Positions 58,901 through 64,000 of a stretch of 64,000 nt of DNA are shown here, piece after piece. This stretch comes from Hymenobacter jeollabukensis (lineage in GTDB: Bacteria > Bacteroidota > Bacteroidia > Cytophagales > Hymenobacteraceae), in NCBI RefSeq assembly GCF_005771675.1, contig NZ_VAJM01000005.1, positions 124,001 to 188,000 of the forward strand, given 5' to 3'. Position numbers and translations under genes: made by a program. The first letter of the stretch is position 1. Every line of letters begins with the position of its first letter. The notes beneath the pieces were generated by a model, which saw only the letters and a program-made list of their open reading frames with translations, searched no databases and had not been told where the DNA came from.

Positions 58901-59815
58901 CTACACCGGCAGGCCGCGCTGCTGCAGGATAAACATCAGAATAAAGGCCGCGCTCAGGCATAGGGATGATACCTGGTTCATGCGCATGGTATGGCGGAAG
59001 TCAGCTGCGGCCGGGTCGTGCCAGGCCTGCCAGGCCCAGCGCGCGAACAGCCCGACGACCGGCAGCGTGGCCACCGCGAAAACGGCCAGAAACGGCAGCT
59101 CGCCCCGGCGCAGGTAGGCGTAGCCGAGCACCAGCGCCCCGGTGAGCAGGCCCAGCCCGGCAAACACGAAGGTGCCGCGCACGCCCAGAAGCAGGCTCAA
59201 CGTCTGGTCGCCGCGCTGCCGGTCTTCTTGGTGCTGATACACTTGCGTGAGCGGGTAAGAGCCACACAGAAACAAACTGCTGACGGTGGCCAGCAGCAGG
59301 TTGTCGGCCGAGCCGATTTCGGCCCGCGTGGCGCCCGCGCCCACCTGCGTCATCAAAAAGGTAAACGCGCCCTGAAACACGACCACCACCAGCGTGCTGA
59401 CGAGCGGGTACTTCTTGAGCCGGATCCGGTCGTAGCTGTAGGCTTTCGACACGAGCAGATACACCATCAGCAGCCCGGCAAAGGCCGGCGAAATCAGCAG
59501 GGCGCCGAGCACGGCCAGCCCGTCGAAGAGCACCACTAGGCGCCACAGCTCCGGCGTGACCTGCGGGGGCCGCTCCAGCCCGCCGATGCTGCCCTCGTCA
59601 CGGTCGAACCAGGAGTTGTAGCCGTTGGAGGCGGGGTAGGCCAGCAGGTGCAGCACCACAAACACGGCCACCGCCCGCCCCGAGGAAAACGGCCCGCGCA
59701 GGGCGCTCAGCGCAAACCAGTACACCGGCATCAGGTACACCGAAAAGGGGATGCGCAGCAGCGGCAGCGCCTTTTTATAATTGGCAATGATCAACTGAGA
59801 AGAAGGCGTAGCCAA
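58901..59815 (-). CDS. UbiA-family prenyltransferase (membrane aromatic prenyltransferase)
   Basis: 304-residue membrane protein with about eight to nine helices. The first polyprenyl-diphosphate Mg2+ motif is NSWFDRDEG (N67, D71, near D73), the NxxxDxxxD region of UbiA proteins. The second site is SYDRIRLKKYPLVSTLVV. Family members transfer an isoprenoid chain to an aromatic ring or related acceptor (quinone, haem A, chlorophyll, digeranylgeranyl lipid). The substrate here is unknown. It lies downstream of a methyltransferase gene on the same strand (187-bp gap), suggesting a small tailoring pair (inference). Confidence 0.88.
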   Translation of the reverse strand: MATPSSQLIIANYKKALPLLRIPFSVYLMPVYWFALSALRGPFSSGRAVAVFVVLHLLAYPASNGYNSWFDRDEGSIGGLERPPQVTPELWRLVVLFDGLAVLGALLISPAFAGLLMVYLLVSKAYSYDRIRLKKYPLVSTLVVVVFQGAFTFLMTQVGAGATRAEIGSADNLLLATVSSLFLCGSYPLTQVYQHQEDRQRGDQTLSLLLGVRGTFVFAGLGLLTGALVLGYAYLRRGELPFLAVFAVATLPVVGLFARWAWQAWHDPAAADFRHTMRMNQVSSLCLSAAFILMFILQQRGLPV

Positions 59816-60002: not shown

Positions 60003-60797
60003 TCAGTCATTGGCAGTTGGCCAGCCGACGAGGTAGGTGACTTCCGGGCCCCAGGCGTGGCGTACGCGGCCGGCCTGCCAGTGGTAGCGGCCCTCCGGGT
60101 CGGCGCGGCCGGCCAAGGCCAGCAGCTGCTCGGGCGGGTACATGCGCAGAATGCTCACCATGCCGTCCCAGATTGTAAACAGCGGAATCAGCGGGACGAG
60201 GTAGGTGAAAAACAAGCGGCTCAGGCTGAACGGCCGCACGAAGGGCATGATGCACAGCAGCGCCACCGGCATGACGGTGCAGGCCAGCAGCAGTTCCAGC
60301 CAGTGCTTGCCCGCGCCCTCGAACACGCCCACGCCGGTGCCCGCCCGCACCGCGTCGCGCAGCAGCGCTTCGGCGGGCGCGGGCCGGAAGTGGTGAAAGG
60401 CCGAAAACACCGCCCGAAAGCCCGGCAGCGCGGCCGGCACCTGCAGGGCATTCACCGCGGCGGGCTCGTAGCCAATAGCGCCGCCGGTTTGCTGCTCGAT
60501 GTGGCGCCAGGCGGCGGGCTGGGGGTAAAGGTCGGTGAGGGTGATGCGGGCCTGGGTCAGACCTTCGGCGTGCAGGGCCTGCAGCACGTCCTCGGTGCCG
60601 CCGCCGCCACCCGCGCACAGCTCCAGCACCTGCGTCTGGCCGGTGCGGCGCAGGCCCTCGGCCAGCAGCGGCGCAATGGGCCGGTAGGTGTGCAGGTGCG
60701 TTATCATGAAGCGCAGGTAGTCCATCATGCCGGCGCGCACGGGCGCCGGAAACCACGGCTGGTCTTCAAACTCGAACAGGTGCAGGCGCAGCTTCAT
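60003..60797 (-). CDS. Class I SAM-dependent methyltransferase with two membrane helices
   Basis: 264-residue protein. The SAM motif is VLELCAGGGGGTEDVLQAL, then ITLTDLYPQP (acidic loop) and AVFSAFHHFRPAPAEALLRD. After the catalytic core come strongly hydrophobic stretches (LELLLACTVMPVALLCIMPF and LFFTYLVPLIPLFTIWD), unusual for a soluble methyltransferase and suggesting membrane attachment. The tail (YHWQAGRVRHAWGPEVTYLVGWP) is family-like. It precedes the UbiA gene on the same strand. Substrate unknown, possibly a lipid or quinone intermediate (inference). Confidence 0.82.
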   Translation of the reverse strand: MKLRLHLFEFEDQPWFPAPVRAGMMDYLRFMITHLHTYRPIAPLLAEGLRRTGQTQVLELCAGGGGGTEDVLQALHAEGLTQARITLTDLYPQPAAWRHIEQQTGGAIGYEPAAVNALQVPAALPGFRAVFSAFHHFRPAPAEALLRDAVRAGTGVGVFEGAGKHWLELLLACTVMPVALLCIMPFVRPFSLSRLFFTYLVPLIPLFTIWDGMVSILRMYPPEQLLALAGRADPEGRYHWQAGRVRHAWGPEVTYLVGWPTAND

Positions 60798-60936
60798 GGC
60801 GGGTGGGAGTGGGAGGGGCGGGCAAGCTACAATTTCGCCGGATTAGCGGCCGAATTCAAGGCATTGCGAACCGGCGGCGCAGCCGCGTCAAAAGTTTTTT
60901 CGCCGGCAGCTTGTATTATAGCGCTATTCTGTGAAG

Positions 60937-60951
60937 CTTTGCAATACAAAG
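60937..60951 (+). promoter_or_regulatory. Operator-like palindrome CTTTG-N5-CAAAG, site 1
   Basis: CTTTG-CAATA-CAAAG ends exactly 10 nt before the ATG at 60962. The same motif with the same spacing precedes the genes at 62116 and 62581. Likely binding site of the winged-helix regulator encoded at 61774 (inference). Confidence 0.75.
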
Positions 60952-60961
60952 TGCTCTGTAT

Positions 60962-61681
60962 ATGAAGCCAGCCGTCGACCCCTTAGCCCAGCTTGCCGAA
61001 ATCCGCACCATCATGGAGCGCTCCTCGCGGTTCATTTCCCTGAGCGGCTTGTCGGGGGTAGGGGCGGGGGTGGTGGCCCTGGCCGGGGCCGCCTTCGGGC
61101 ACTGGTACCTGCACACGCAGTTCCGCAGCGACGACGTGGCCGCCAACCCGTATGCTGCCACGCCCTACGGCAGCACATTTGGGGATTCGTCGGGCTTCGT
61201 GCGGCTGATGGAAGGCTCGGCCGAGGCCCGCATGGCGACGCTGCCGTTTCTGCTGGGGCTGGCGCTGGGCATCATCGTGCTGGCGGGGCTGGTGGCGGTG
61301 TATTTCACCCGGCGCCGCTCGCGCAGCGCGGGCCGCTCCCTGTGGGACCCGGTGGTGCGCCGCCTGTTCTGGAGCATGGCCGTGCCACTGGTGGCGGGCG
61401 GGCTGTTCTGCCTGCGGCTGTACGTGCACGGCGCGGCCGGGCTGGTGGTGCCCGCCATGCTGATTTTCTACGGTCTGGCCCTGCTCAACGCCAGCAAGTA
61501 TACCCTCGACGAAATCAAGCTGCTCGGCATCACCGAAATCGGGGTGGGGCTTGTGGCCATGCTGTTTCCCGACTGGGCCTTTGCCTTCTTCGCCGTCGGT
61601 TTCGGGCTCTGCCACATCGGCTACGGGCTGCTGATGTACAACCGCTACGAGCGGCAGCGCCGCGCCGATCCGGTGGCGTAA
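60962..61681 (+). CDS. Multi-pass membrane protein of unknown function
   Basis: 239-residue protein with a short cytoplasmic N-terminus (LAQLAEIRTIMERSSRF) and about six hydrophobic segments (SGVGAGVVALAGAAFGHWYL, ATLPFLLGLALGIIVLAGLV, LVAGGLFCLRLYVHG, LVVPAMLIFYGLALLN, IGVGLVAMLFPDWAFAFFA). LNASKYTLDEIKLLGITEI is a distinctive motif between helices. It is first in the right-hand cluster and is preceded by operator site 1; the regulator gene follows 92 nt downstream. No family function is known. Confidence 0.78.
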   Translation: MKPAVDPLAQLAEIRTIMERSSRFISLSGLSGVGAGVVALAGAAFGHWYLHTQFRSDDVAANPYAATPYGSTFGDSSGFVRLMEGSAEARMATLPFLLGLALGIIVLAGLVAVYFTRRRSRSAGRSLWDPVVRRLFWSMAVPLVAGGLFCLRLYVHGAAGLVVPAMLIFYGLALLNASKYTLDEIKLLGITEIGVGLVAMLFPDWAFAFFAVGFGLCHIGYGLLMYNRYERQRRADPVA

Positions 61682-61695
61682 GCGCGCCGCGGTGC

Positions 61696-61703
61696 TACCT
61701 TCG
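61696..61703 (+). promoter_or_regulatory. Possible -7 box of the regulator gene
   Basis: TACCTTCG (near TAnnTTTG), 70 nt before the GTG at 61774. It would let the regulator be transcribed independently of site 1. Confidence 0.3.
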
Positions 61704-61773
61704 CCGCCACGTCCGCGTTTCCCGTTTCCTCTTTTAGATTCAGCGCGCCGCCCGCCGGCCGCGTTCCAGCTCC

Positions 61774-62073
61774 GTGAAGCACGCCATCCATCAGCTTAAC
61801 AAGGCCTTCGACCACCGCGTGCGGTTGGGCGTGATGGCCGTGCTCATGGCCAACGAGGAGGTGAGCTTTGGCGACCTGAAGGAAACCCTGGACCTCACGG
61901 ACGGCAACCTCGCCAGCCACGCCGCCGCGCTGGAAAAAGCCGGCTACGTGCAGGTCAACAAGCAATTCATCGGCAAGAAGCCCAATACCACCTTCACCGC
62001 CACCAAGGAAGGCCGCCAGGCTTTCCAGGACCACCTCGATACCCTGGAAAAGCTGCTCCGCCGCGACGGGTAA
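61774..62073 (+). CDS. Small winged-helix transcriptional regulator (MarR/HTH_34-like)
   Basis: 99-residue one-domain DNA-binding protein starting at GTG (MKHAIHQLNKAFDHRVRLGV). The wHTH is visible: VSFGDLKETLDLTDGNLASH as helix-turn-helix, LEKAGYVQVNKQFIGKKPNT as the wing, and TKEGRQAFQDHLDTLEKLL as the dimer helix. It matches the small HTH_34-type repressors common in Bacteroidota and archaea. No ligand domain is present. It sits between genes carrying the CTTTG-N5-CAAAG palindrome and is the natural candidate to bind it as a dimer (inference). The GTG start may keep its level low. Confidence 0.88.
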   Translation: MKHAIHQLNKAFDHRVRLGVMAVLMANEEVSFGDLKETLDLTDGNLASHAAALEKAGYVQVNKQFIGKKPNTTFTATKEGRQAFQDHLDTLEKLLRRDG

Positions 62074-62088
62074 ATTTTTTTGCAGATA

Positions 62089-62107
62089 AACTTTGAACCA
62101 CAAAGTT
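62089..62107 (+). promoter_or_regulatory. Operator-like palindrome CTTTG-N5-CAAAG, site 2
   Basis: AACTTTG-AACCA-CAAAGTT, the most symmetric copy (7-bp arms). The CAAAG arm ends 10 nt before the ATG at 62116. Confidence 0.78.
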
Positions 62108-62115
62108 CTTTTGGA

Positions 62116-62502
62116 ATGAGTATTCTGCGCTACGAGACATCACCCGCCTGCTTCCGCCAGCGTACCACGCTGTCCGCGACTACGGCCTTGAGTCGGCTCA
62201 TTGGCGTTCTGAGCGGGACTACCATTTGCTGGATGATATGGCTAGTGGTCATCGGTAGCACATCCAGTTCCAGACTGGCGACGCTGCTCATGGGTGGGCT
62301 GGTGGTGCTGCCGGTAGCAGGAGCAGTGTTGCTGCTAGGGCTCGTCAGCTGGCCTTTAGCTCTCCGACTGCGCTATTGCTTCAGCATTAAATCATTCGTG
62401 GTGTTGCTGTTAAGTGCTTTAGGACAAGCATTATTGGGGTTGTATGCACTGGCGGTCTGGCAGATGCTGACTGAGCCGACTGCTGGGGATTTTCATTTCT
62501 AA
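62116..62502 (+). CDS. Small membrane protein, unknown
   Basis: 128-residue protein with three hydrophobic helices (GVLSGTTICWMIWLVVIGS, LMGGLVVLPVAGAVLLLGLV, FVVLLLSALGQALLGLYALA) and short basic loops. Base composition is more AT-rich than the flanking genes, hinting at later arrival. ATG 62116 stands exactly 10 nt after operator site 2. Family not recognised; membership in the local regulon is inferred from the operator. Confidence 0.62.
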   Translation: MSILRYETSPACFRQRTTLSATTALSRLIGVLSGTTICWMIWLVVIGSTSSSRLATLLMGGLVVLPVAGAVLLLGLVSWPLALRLRYCFSIKSFVVLLLSALGQALLGLYALAVWQMLTEPTAGDFHF

Positions 62503-62555
62503 AGCGAGCTTAAGCCCAAGAAGCACGTCTCCACCTCTCTCTTTTTGTTGATAAG

Positions 62556-62570
62556 CTTTGAAATACAAAG
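62556..62570 (+). promoter_or_regulatory. Operator-like palindrome CTTTG-N5-CAAAG, site 3
   Basis: CTTTG-AAATA-CAAAG, followed by TTCTTTTGAT and then the ATG at 62581, again 10 nt after the motif. The 3' flank TTCTTTTG is shared with site 2. Confidence 0.78.
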
Positions 62571-62580
62571 TTCTTTTGAT

Positions 62581-64000
62581 ATGAACGCACTCCCCCTTTT
62601 CACCCCCACTAACACCGCCCGGGCCGAAGCCGCACCCTACGCCGGACCGGTGTGGCGCCCGGTGCGCCTGGTACTCACCGCTACCCAGAAATGGCTGCTG
62701 CCGCTGGGCGTGCTGGCCTTCGACGTGCTGTTCTGGCAGCAGGGCCTGGGGCTGAACCTGGCCATCTACACCCTGCTGGCCGTGCTGGCCCTGCTGGCCG
62801 GGCAGCCCCGCGCCGCCTGGCGCTCCGGCTACTTCCGCCTCGTGCTGCTGGGCGCGCTGGTGAGCTGCGGGGCGGTAGCCTGGTACGGCTCGGCCACGGC
62901 GGCGCTGGCCTGCACGGGCTCCTTGCTGATGCTCTGGGGCTACGCCAACCAGCCCCCGCTCAAGCAGGCGGCGCTGGCTCTGCTCACCGGCCTGGGCGCC
63001 GCGGCGCAGGTGGTGACGGGCCTGCCCGCGCTGCTGCTGCGCGCCCTGCCCAGCCGCGACACCAAGGCGGGCCGCGCCGGCTGGTACGTGCGCCTGCTGC
63101 TGGTGCCGGTGCTCATCCTGGGCGTGTTCCATATGCTGTTCGTGCTGGCCAACCCGCGCTACAGCCAGCTGGTCGGGCGGGCCTGGCAGGCGCTGGGCGA
63201 GTGGCTGGGCCGGTTTTTTGAGCTGCTCTCGCTGGGGCACCTGCTGTTTCTGGTGCTGGGGCTGATGGTGACGGCCGCCGCCCTGCTGCGGGTGCCGCTG
63301 CCGGGCCTGGCGCAGTGGGAGGCCCGCTTCGGCGAGCTGGTGCGCCGCCGCCGCGACGGGGTGGCGTCCTTCAGCGTGCCGCGCCCCGATTTCCGGCGCC
63401 GCGACTTCCGCACGGCCGATCTGCGCAAGGAGTATCTGGCCGCGCTGGCCGTATTCGGACTGGTGAACCTGCTGCTGCTGGCCGTCAACGCCATTGACAT
63501 CAGCTGGATCTGGATTGACTTCCGGCCCGAGCCGGGCTTCGACCTGGCGCAGTTCGTGCACGAGGGCACCTACGTACTCATCTTCAGCATTCTGCTGGCC
63601 ATGGGCATCGTGCTCTGGTTTTTCCGCCGCAACCTGAACTTCTACCAGCCCGGCCTGCCCGTGCTGCGCTGGGGCGCCACGGTGTGGGTGCTGCAAAACG
63701 CGGTGCTGGCCGTGTCGGTGGGCGTGCGCAACTACCACTACATCTCGCGCATGGGCCTGGCCTACAAGCGCATCGGGGTGTGCTTTTTCCTGCTGCTGAC
63801 CTTGTTCGGGCTCCTGACCATCCTGCTCAAGATCTGGCAGCGCCGCTCGGCCTTCGCGCTGGTGCGCCTCAACAGCGTGGCCGCCTACCTGGTGCTGCTG
63901 GCGCTGGCCGTGGGCAACTGGGAAGTCTGGATCGTGCGCTACAACCTCACGGTGGGCTTCCCGCAGGTCGACTACGGCTTCCTGCTCGACATGCCCGGCC
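62581..64000 (+). CDS. DUF4173 multi-pass membrane protein (3' cut by window edge)
   Basis: At least 473 residues; the frame is open to the window end. After a short N-terminus there are about twelve hydrophobic helices. The DUF4173 signature is recognisable: FRRRDFRTADLRKEYLAAL, AIDISWIWIDFRPEPGFDLA, FVHEGTYVLIFSILLAMGIV, VRNYHYISRMGLAYKRIGV and NWEVWIVRYNL. DUF4173 proteins of Bacteroidota are usually 480-550 residues, so only the end is missing. Function unknown. It has operator site 3 immediately upstream and belongs to the cluster with the regulator at 61774. Confidence 0.85.
   Translation, partial: MNALPLFTPTNTARAEAAPYAGPVWRPVRLVLTATQKWLLPLGVLAFDVLFWQQGLGLNLAIYTLLAVLALLAGQPRAAWRSGYFRLVLLGALVSCGAVAWYGSATAALACTGSLLMLWGYANQPPLKQAALALLTGLGAAAQVVTGLPALLLRALPSRDTKAGRAGWYVRLLLVPVLILGVFHMLFVLANPRYSQLVGRAWQALGEWLGRFFELLSLGHLLFLVLGLMVTAAALLRVPLPGLAQWEARFGELVRRRRDGVASFSVPRPDFRRRDFRTADLRKEYLAALAVFGLVNLLLLAVNAIDISWIWIDFRPEPGFDLAQFVHEGTYVLIFSILLAMGIVLWFFRRNLNFYQPGLPVLRWGATVWVLQNAVLAVSVGVRNYHYISRMGLAYKRIGVCFFLLLTLFGLLTILLKIWQRRSAFALVRLNSVAAYLVLLALAVGNWEVWIVRYNLTVGFPQVDYGFLLDMPG

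Follow-up and report, generated by a model that had tools for sequence, protein, structure and literature searches.

A palindromic operator probably ties a small HTH_34 winged-helix regulator to membrane genes in Hymenobacter jeollabukensis and other Bacteroidota

Introduction

Why should one short palindrome stand at the same distance from the start codons of three neighbouring genes, with the gene of a small DNA-binding protein among them? This question is raised by a 64-kb stretch of the Hymenobacter jeollabukensis genome (contig NZ_VAJM01000005.1, positions 124,001 to 188,000; hereafter the window), in which the sequence CTTTG-N5-CAAAG has three matches on the + strand, at 60937-60951, 62091-62105 and 62556-62570, the only ones within the 64 kb, around a gene at 61774 for a winged-helix protein of the HTH_34 family. 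An earlier note, made from the letters of the window, had read these palindromes as a compact regulon of that protein, and its three positions are correct. Their number is far above expectation: shuffling the window gives a mean of 0.14 matches, none of 100 shuffles reaches three, and the same arms at all spacers from 0 to 15 other than 5 have one match in total. We find it very probable that the three sites are operators of the 61774 protein, and we put a probability of about 80% on the wider reading that a dimer of this protein binds the sites found at HTH_34 loci and represses its own operon together with mostly membrane and envelope genes, with the adjoining membrane protein as the likely sensor. 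Comparison between genomes shows the motif with its anatomy, the link to the orthologous regulator and the recurring targets, and such a control circuit for membrane genes very probably recurs across much of the Bacteroidota.

Results

The palindrome follows the orthologous regulator

We compare 80 named HTH_34 loci (the best 80 of 585 protein matches, picked by protein alignment and not by motif), which include Hymenobacter, Flavobacterium, Chryseobacterium, Pontibacter, Pedobacter, Niastella, Fibrisoma and others. Near the gene, by which we mean -1400 to +250 of HTH_34, the palindrome with a 5-nt spacer is found in 145 copies, against 6 for spacers 0-4 and 6-15 taken together; the remaining 770 kb of these loci hold 15. 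A site lies upstream of the regulator operon in 74 of the 80 loci, downstream in 71 and on both sides in 67, and in 61 of the 71 the downstream site starts 16-26 bp past the HTH_34 stop codon (17 bp in the window).

The same tie is seen from the side of the genomes. Of 100 genomes from the family, 98 carry the extended motif CTTTG-N5-CAAAGTNCTTT and two the reversed pattern. Across the phylum 99 of 395 genomes carry the motif, and when these are split by whether they encode a strong orthologue of the regulator (E below about 1e-36), it is found in 91/118 genomes with one and 8/277 others (Fisher p 1e-54); all 8 of the latter have a weaker HTH_34 match. Within the block of 98 genomes of the same class (own genome included), the split is 69/72 against 0/26. 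Of the 27 strong-orthologue genomes that lack the exact motif, 20 were inspected, and all 20 have close to the gene a copy that differs at one or two positions, 18 of them with the right arm AAAAG; 9 of 10 further strong-orthologue loci carry the motif at 0-1 mismatches. At the loci of 13 weaker HTH_34 paralogues no copy is closer than two mismatches, and the membrane partner described below is found at none of these 13 loci. Rather than occurring at random positions with no link to such regulators, the outcome that the earlier note had posed as its refutation, the motif thus follows the orthologous regulator across Bacteroidota genomes. One paralogue locus (L347:889, - strand) has ACTTTATAATATAAAGTACTTT, a symmetric two-mismatch variant of the operator, and may belong to a related regulator with shifted specificity.

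Anatomy of the operator and register of the promoter

To describe the sites we first list the features of the window, all on the + strand.

60911..60913, TTG, resembling a -33 element and placed as in the regulator's own promoter (-26 to -24 of site 1)
60937..60951, predicted operator site 1, CTTTGCAATACAAAG, covering the -7 box and start predicted for the operon of membrane protein and HTH_34
60954..60957, third half-site of site 1, CTCT, with one mismatch to the consensus CTTT (positions 18-21 of the position matrix)
60962..61681, membrane protein, 239 aa, the regulator's partner (Pfam DUF308 below cut-off only)
61774..62073, HTH_34 (PF13601) winged-helix regulator, 99 aa, GTG start, by profile match
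62075..62081, T7 tract at -16 to -10 of site 2
62091..62105, predicted operator site 2, CTTTGAACCACAAAG, arms extending to AACTTTG/CAAAGTT
62108..62111, third half-site of site 2, CTTT, by the position matrix
62116..62502, small open reading frame (ORF) between sites 2 and 3, 128 aa, membrane-like by sequence
62540..62546, TCTTTTT, the T-rich tract of site 3, placed like the tract of site 2
62556..62570, predicted operator site 3, CTTTGAAATACAAAG, preceding the DUF4153 gene
62573..62576, third half-site of site 3, CTTT, by the position matrix
62581..64000, DUF4153 protein, at least 496 aa, continuing beyond the window end (its end is also not reached in locus L005)

Read across loci, the full operator is ACTTTG-N5-CAAAGT-N-CTTT. 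A position matrix of the 74 upstream sites gives T-[AT]-A-CTTTG-N5-CAAAG-T-A-CTTT with TT(G) at -26 to -24, and the CTTT at positions 18-21 is exact in 58/74 upstream and 66/71 downstream sites; its mirror image upstream of the palindrome occurs at 0/145 sites. In the window, sites 2 and 3 share TTCTTTTG, as the earlier note had pointed out without error.

This one operator is met in two promoter registers, TTG-N20-TWnCTTTG upstream of the regulator and a T7 tract downstream. The passages of PMC6847099 that bear on it give the Flavobacterium promoter as TTTG / TAHHTTTG, with the -7 box TAHHTTTG at -12 to -5 and G rare at its two middle positions. The left arm of the operator coincides with this -7 box, which would place the transcription start near motif position 10. 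Accordingly placed for a -33 element, a TTG ending at -26 to -22 is present at 58/74 upstream sites, site 1 of the window included, against 8/74 at a control position. Window sites 1 and 3 each have a G at a middle -7 position. The T tract register is shown fully by window site 2 and in part by site 3.

Sites also occur away from the regulator. After removal of loci with HTH_34 or its partner, 93 such orphan sites become 84, of which 21 have the T tract, and in 17 a TWnnTTTG box lies at positions 24-26, downstream of the palindrome; nine control windows have 0, 0, 0, 0, 1, 0, 0, 0 and 9 such boxes, the last being near the -33 region. At those 17 sites the left arm is possibly the -33 element instead.

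The palindrome ends 10 nt before an ATG at all three window sites, just as the earlier note had it. As a rule this distance does not generalize: at the regulator's own promoter it ranges from 6 to 21 nt (51 of 73 at 8-10), and at other sites it varies widely. The near-leaderless messenger RNA that the note derived from the fixed distance is partly right, in that we infer a short leader, predicted at about 16 nt, for site 1.

Genes of the window and further sites in the genome

The last gene, a DUF4173 protein in the earlier note, is DUF4153 (PF13687, E 1.6e-33), with DUF4173 not among the matches at E 0.1. The 128-aa ORF at 62116..62502 has neither a Pfam nor an NCBIfam match at E 0.1. Hymenobacter edaphi (L067) and H. 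gummosus (L068) also have a layout with three sites. Upstream of the operon, on the - strand, are a UbiA-family prenyltransferase gene (58901-59815) and an ORF (60003-60797) with a sub-threshold methyltransferase match. A plasmid origin of the locus was considered and dropped, a plasmid collection having given no near match.

In the whole genome (6.18 Mb) the bare CTTTG-N5-CAAAG occurs at 7 places and the reversed pattern at 5. The bare pattern is not rare genome-wide; the weight of the argument rests on clustering, the extra half-site and conservation. Four of the seven places are outside the window: one (C12) falls within open reading frames and three are regulon-like, preceding an MpaB-like gene (C24), a weakly DoxX-like gene (C26) and an unknown membrane protein (C22). 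When ACTTTG-N5-CAAAGTNCTTT is sought with up to two mismatches, 10 places are found, six of regulon type (the three in the window and the three just named) and four that appear to be chance or repeats. With further sites elsewhere in the genome, the description of the regulon as compact is not supported. A near-motif, ACTTTGTAAAGCAAGGTACTTG, is identical on two contigs (C1:450343 and C3:175199) and perhaps lies in a repeated element.

The regulator and its membrane partner

The 61774 protein matches the HTH_34 profile (PF13601) with 107.2 bits against a cut-off of 27 (E 5e-31) and is the sole HTH_34 protein above the Pfam cut-off in this genome. Its predicted structure is a winged helix (pLDDT 91.7), nearest to 1ub9 (TM 0.86), which it also matches in sequence (E 3e-9); next come MarR, ArsR and PadR regulators, some of them DNA-bound. 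The membrane partner gene is present at 80/80 named loci and lies upstream on the same strand in 74. The partner is modelled as mostly helical (pLDDT 88.4), with no match to a PDB structure at E 0.001; among 49 partners, DUF308 is found below cut-off in 4, and the SdpI family of Pfam has no match at E 0.01.

We compare residue 67, at the tip of the wing, with operator base 11 in 132 distinct proteins, 20 of whose loci were picked for missing the exact motif. The counts are 102 G with C, 18 D or N with A, 3 D or N with C, 1 G with A, 1 G with T, and 7 with no site; the G with A case (L072) is judged a chance match and left out of the clade count. The change of base 11 from C to A accompanies G67 to D or N, and when residue 67 is left out of the tree, the A11 proteins form one clade of 17 (support 0.93) plus L252. 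Lying on two separate branches, the pairing would have arisen twice. We regard these two co-occurrences as suggestive and no more.

Genes behind the operator

For the targets we group 145 ORFs behind sites by single linkage, 66 downstream of the regulator and 79 orphan. The ORFs were picked for length and proximity to the site rather than by a gene caller. The downstream ORFs come from 66 of 70 loci (the doubtful L067, L068, L102 and L126 being excluded), and the orphan alignment holds 69 of 78, leaving out four second Coq4-like copies, L180 and the doubtful L031, L225, L229 and L236. The orphan sites were selected by motif and are not an unbiased sample of genes.

The commonest target is an unnamed membrane family with the signature VAMQFTxEVxWxxxDF (31/145 ORFs, one doubtful ORF removed), mostly 94-194 aa long and seen at L022, L053, L055, L208, L213 and others; two members scanned alone (L055 and L208) have no Pfam match at E 0.1. 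It is followed by Coq4-like (22), DUF4153 (15), MpaB-like (11) and XrtN-VIT/MSEP-CTERM (8) proteins, by B12 radical SAM, CreD and YiiX-type C92 proteins with 6 each, by DUF1361 (5), a small membrane family (5), XrtK (4) and weakly DoxX-like proteins (4), and by further smaller groups. Several of these families have members both beside the regulator and at a distance, which is what a regulon would show. In the class-mate loci L199, L201, L203, L205 and L206 a YiiX-type gene is followed by a Coq4-like gene, each with its own copy of the operator.

The picture changes when families are chosen independently of the motif. Five XrtK genes over cut-off are found in 198 genomes; three of the five genomes concerned have a strong orthologue, and a site lies near one of the five genes. 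For CreD, 24 of the 30 genomes with the best-scoring loci lack a strong orthologue. In G530 and G579, CreD lies at most 2 kb downstream of HTH_34 with no site in the stretch examined, the lower-scoring CreD genes of G101, G116, G132, G148 and G174 are at most about 1.1 kb from a strong HTH_34, and in all at least seven CreD genes beyond the two motif-bearing loci are within about 2 kb of HTH_34. With 2 of 30 family-selected loci carrying the operator, we reject CreD as a core member. Since the independently chosen families are mostly outside the regulon, membership appears facultative, and CreD and XrtK would be only occasional members.

Discussion

The arrangement suggests a mechanism. The operator would consist of two inverted half-sites, separated by about one helical turn, with a third on the gene side, and a dimer of the small winged-helix protein may bind it. 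With the operator lying across the sigma-A -7 box (TWnCTTTG) and the predicted start of transcription, the bound protein would block its own operon, that is the membrane protein and HTH_34, together with mostly membrane and envelope genes, both adjacent and elsewhere. The membrane protein would be a likely sensor that releases the regulator, a role suggested by its adjacency and by the precedent of SdpR/SdpI. Two marks of an autoregulated repressor can be read from sequence: the operator is at the regulator's own promoter in 74/80 loci, and it overlaps the core promoter in the TTG-N20-TWnCTTTG register. Because the left arm doubles as the Bacteroidota -7 box, autorepression is the likeliest mode.

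It is important to note what weighs against this reading. Repression is proposed from the overlap with the promoter, and at window site 1 the -7 box is weak (AAGCTTTG) and the third half-site is CTCT. The exact site is missing upstream in 6/80 loci and downstream in 9/80; among these only L129 has one-mismatch versions, the rest having nothing close, and L344 has a strong orthologue with no site. The pairing of wing and operator has its own difficulties: a third change of G67, in Gramella, Gillisia and Salegentibacter loci, comes with no change of base, and positions 25, 4 and 30 score like residue 67 against base 11. Among targets, the motif is found at 2 of the 30 best-scoring CreD loci, both beside HTH_34, and G638 and G622 have a strong orthologue and no site near XrtK. 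Finally, the downstream promoters lack the -33 element (TTG at 3/71 sites, 9 at the control position) and have a T tract (at least 6 T of 7) at -16 to -10 in 67/71 sites, so that another mode of action is possible there.

This last point is also what speaks for the idea that HTH_34 binds the sites and activates, or switches between modes, notably at those T-tract promoters, where the tract keeps a fixed register. We think it unlikely, since an operator placed over the predicted -7 box and start suits blocking, and several YiiX-type promoters of class mates have TTTGG at the -33 register together with the T tract, which makes the tract look like a spacer feature of ordinary promoters. The sites could instead belong to another, unlinked regulator or be a variant of a sigma-factor promoter, HTH_34 being merely one of the targets, and part of the conservation must indeed be promoter, as the left arm matches the sigma-A -7 box. 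Sigma-A is universal, hence the absence of the motif from class-block genomes with no strong orthologue (0/26) counts against a sigma variant; moreover, the right arm and the third half-site match nothing in the published promoter, and the site is kept where the promoter is apparently in another register. We consider this alternative very unlikely.

More improbable by a shade is the RNA hairpin at the start codon that the earlier note had raised, acting as attenuator or translation switch. The window sites fold at -4.7 to -4.9 kcal/mol (z -0.3 to -1.9), and in loci L245-L247 the closing pair is changed from G-C to T-A on both sides, with L347 a further symmetric variant, which a DNA site for a dimer would equally allow. 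If the left arm is a -7 box, it is not transcribed, and transcription would start inside the palindrome. Among best sites, taken one per protein, 24 (15 upstream and 9 downstream) have the closing pair (positions 5 and 11) broken with no compensating change; the pair is G-T once, and is restored as T-A in the three real loci just named, a fourth restoration (L072) resembling a chance match; of the 18 AAAAG loci, 15 break the pair and 3 restore it. The pair -1/16 is A-C 14 times, A-T or G-T 128 times and never G-C in 145 sites. At 17/84 orphan sites the -7-like box lies downstream of the palindrome, and the distances to the ATG are variable. Taken together, the promoter register, the mostly uncompensated arm changes and the variable position leave the hairpin weak. 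Least probable of all is that the T tract and site 2 form the terminator of the HTH_34 operon, as the position of site 2 just past the HTH_34 stop in 61/71 loci might suggest: the tract lies before the palindrome, tract and site are found together at 21/84 orphan sites whose loci have neither HTH_34 nor its partner, and an ORF mostly follows at short distance. We set the terminator reading aside as unlikely.

Small regulators beside membrane proteins are not new. In Bacillus subtilis, SdpR/SdpI pairs the gene of a small ArsR-type autorepressor with that of a membrane protein. Our system resembles it in the adjoining partner gene and in the regulator's weak NCBIfam match to SdpR (E 0.0016), and differs in that the partner has no SdpI match in Pfam and many promoters are involved. 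PH1061 of Pyrococcus horikoshii (1ub9, PF13601) is like the window regulator in sequence family and fold; compared with PF13601 in general, the Bacteroidota lineage is tied to a membrane partner and a single operator. CreD, known from the CreBC/CreD regulon of gamma-proteobacteria (PMC4689548), stands behind the operator in some lineages, whereas no two-component system is seen at HTH_34 loci and the operator is missing at 28 of the 30 best-scoring CreD loci. Genes of the XrtK/MSEP-CTERM and XrtN/VIT sorting systems (NCBIfam TIGR04287, TIGR04286, TIGR04477) lie behind the operator at several loci, but only some copies are under it, 1 of five in the case of XrtK genes over cut-off. Against the Bacteroidota sigma-A promoter TTTG/TAHHTTTG, as it appears in passages of PMC6847099 and PMC9723704, the left arm would be the -7 box, or possibly the -33 element at the 17 orphan sites, while the right arm and third half-site are in no sigma motif of those passages; the strings 'palindrom', 'CTTTG' and 'CAAAG' do not occur in the main text of PMC9723704. 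For the HTH_34 family we found no operator or regulon among the papers listed in literature searches, judged by titles and the starts of abstracts and with indexing by family name perhaps poor. The autoregulated winged-helix repressor is thus already known as a kind; this regulon, its operator and its partner were not found in those titles and abstract starts.

A broader picture can be drawn, which we offer tentatively and think somewhat less likely than its negation: membrane protein and HTH_34 may form an ancient one-component envelope switch of the Bacteroidota, in which the membrane sensor holds or releases the 99-residue repressor. The operator would be portable, supplying a -7 or a -33 element, and any gene acquiring it would join; the promoter after the regulator would be kept while its cargo (DUF4153, Coq4-like, CreD, DUF1361, XrtK, radical SAM) is exchanged, so that exosortase, CreD and MpaB functions share control where the site is present.

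If the proposed regulation is true, a single small regulator and its operator, conserved through much of the phylum, would open a first way into many uncharacterised Bacteroidota membrane families, by placing DUF4153, DUF1361, the MpaB-like and Coq4-like proteins, the XrtK and XrtN systems and the unnamed membrane family in one circuit. Because the site and the protein are both short, concrete tests of this circuit are possible.

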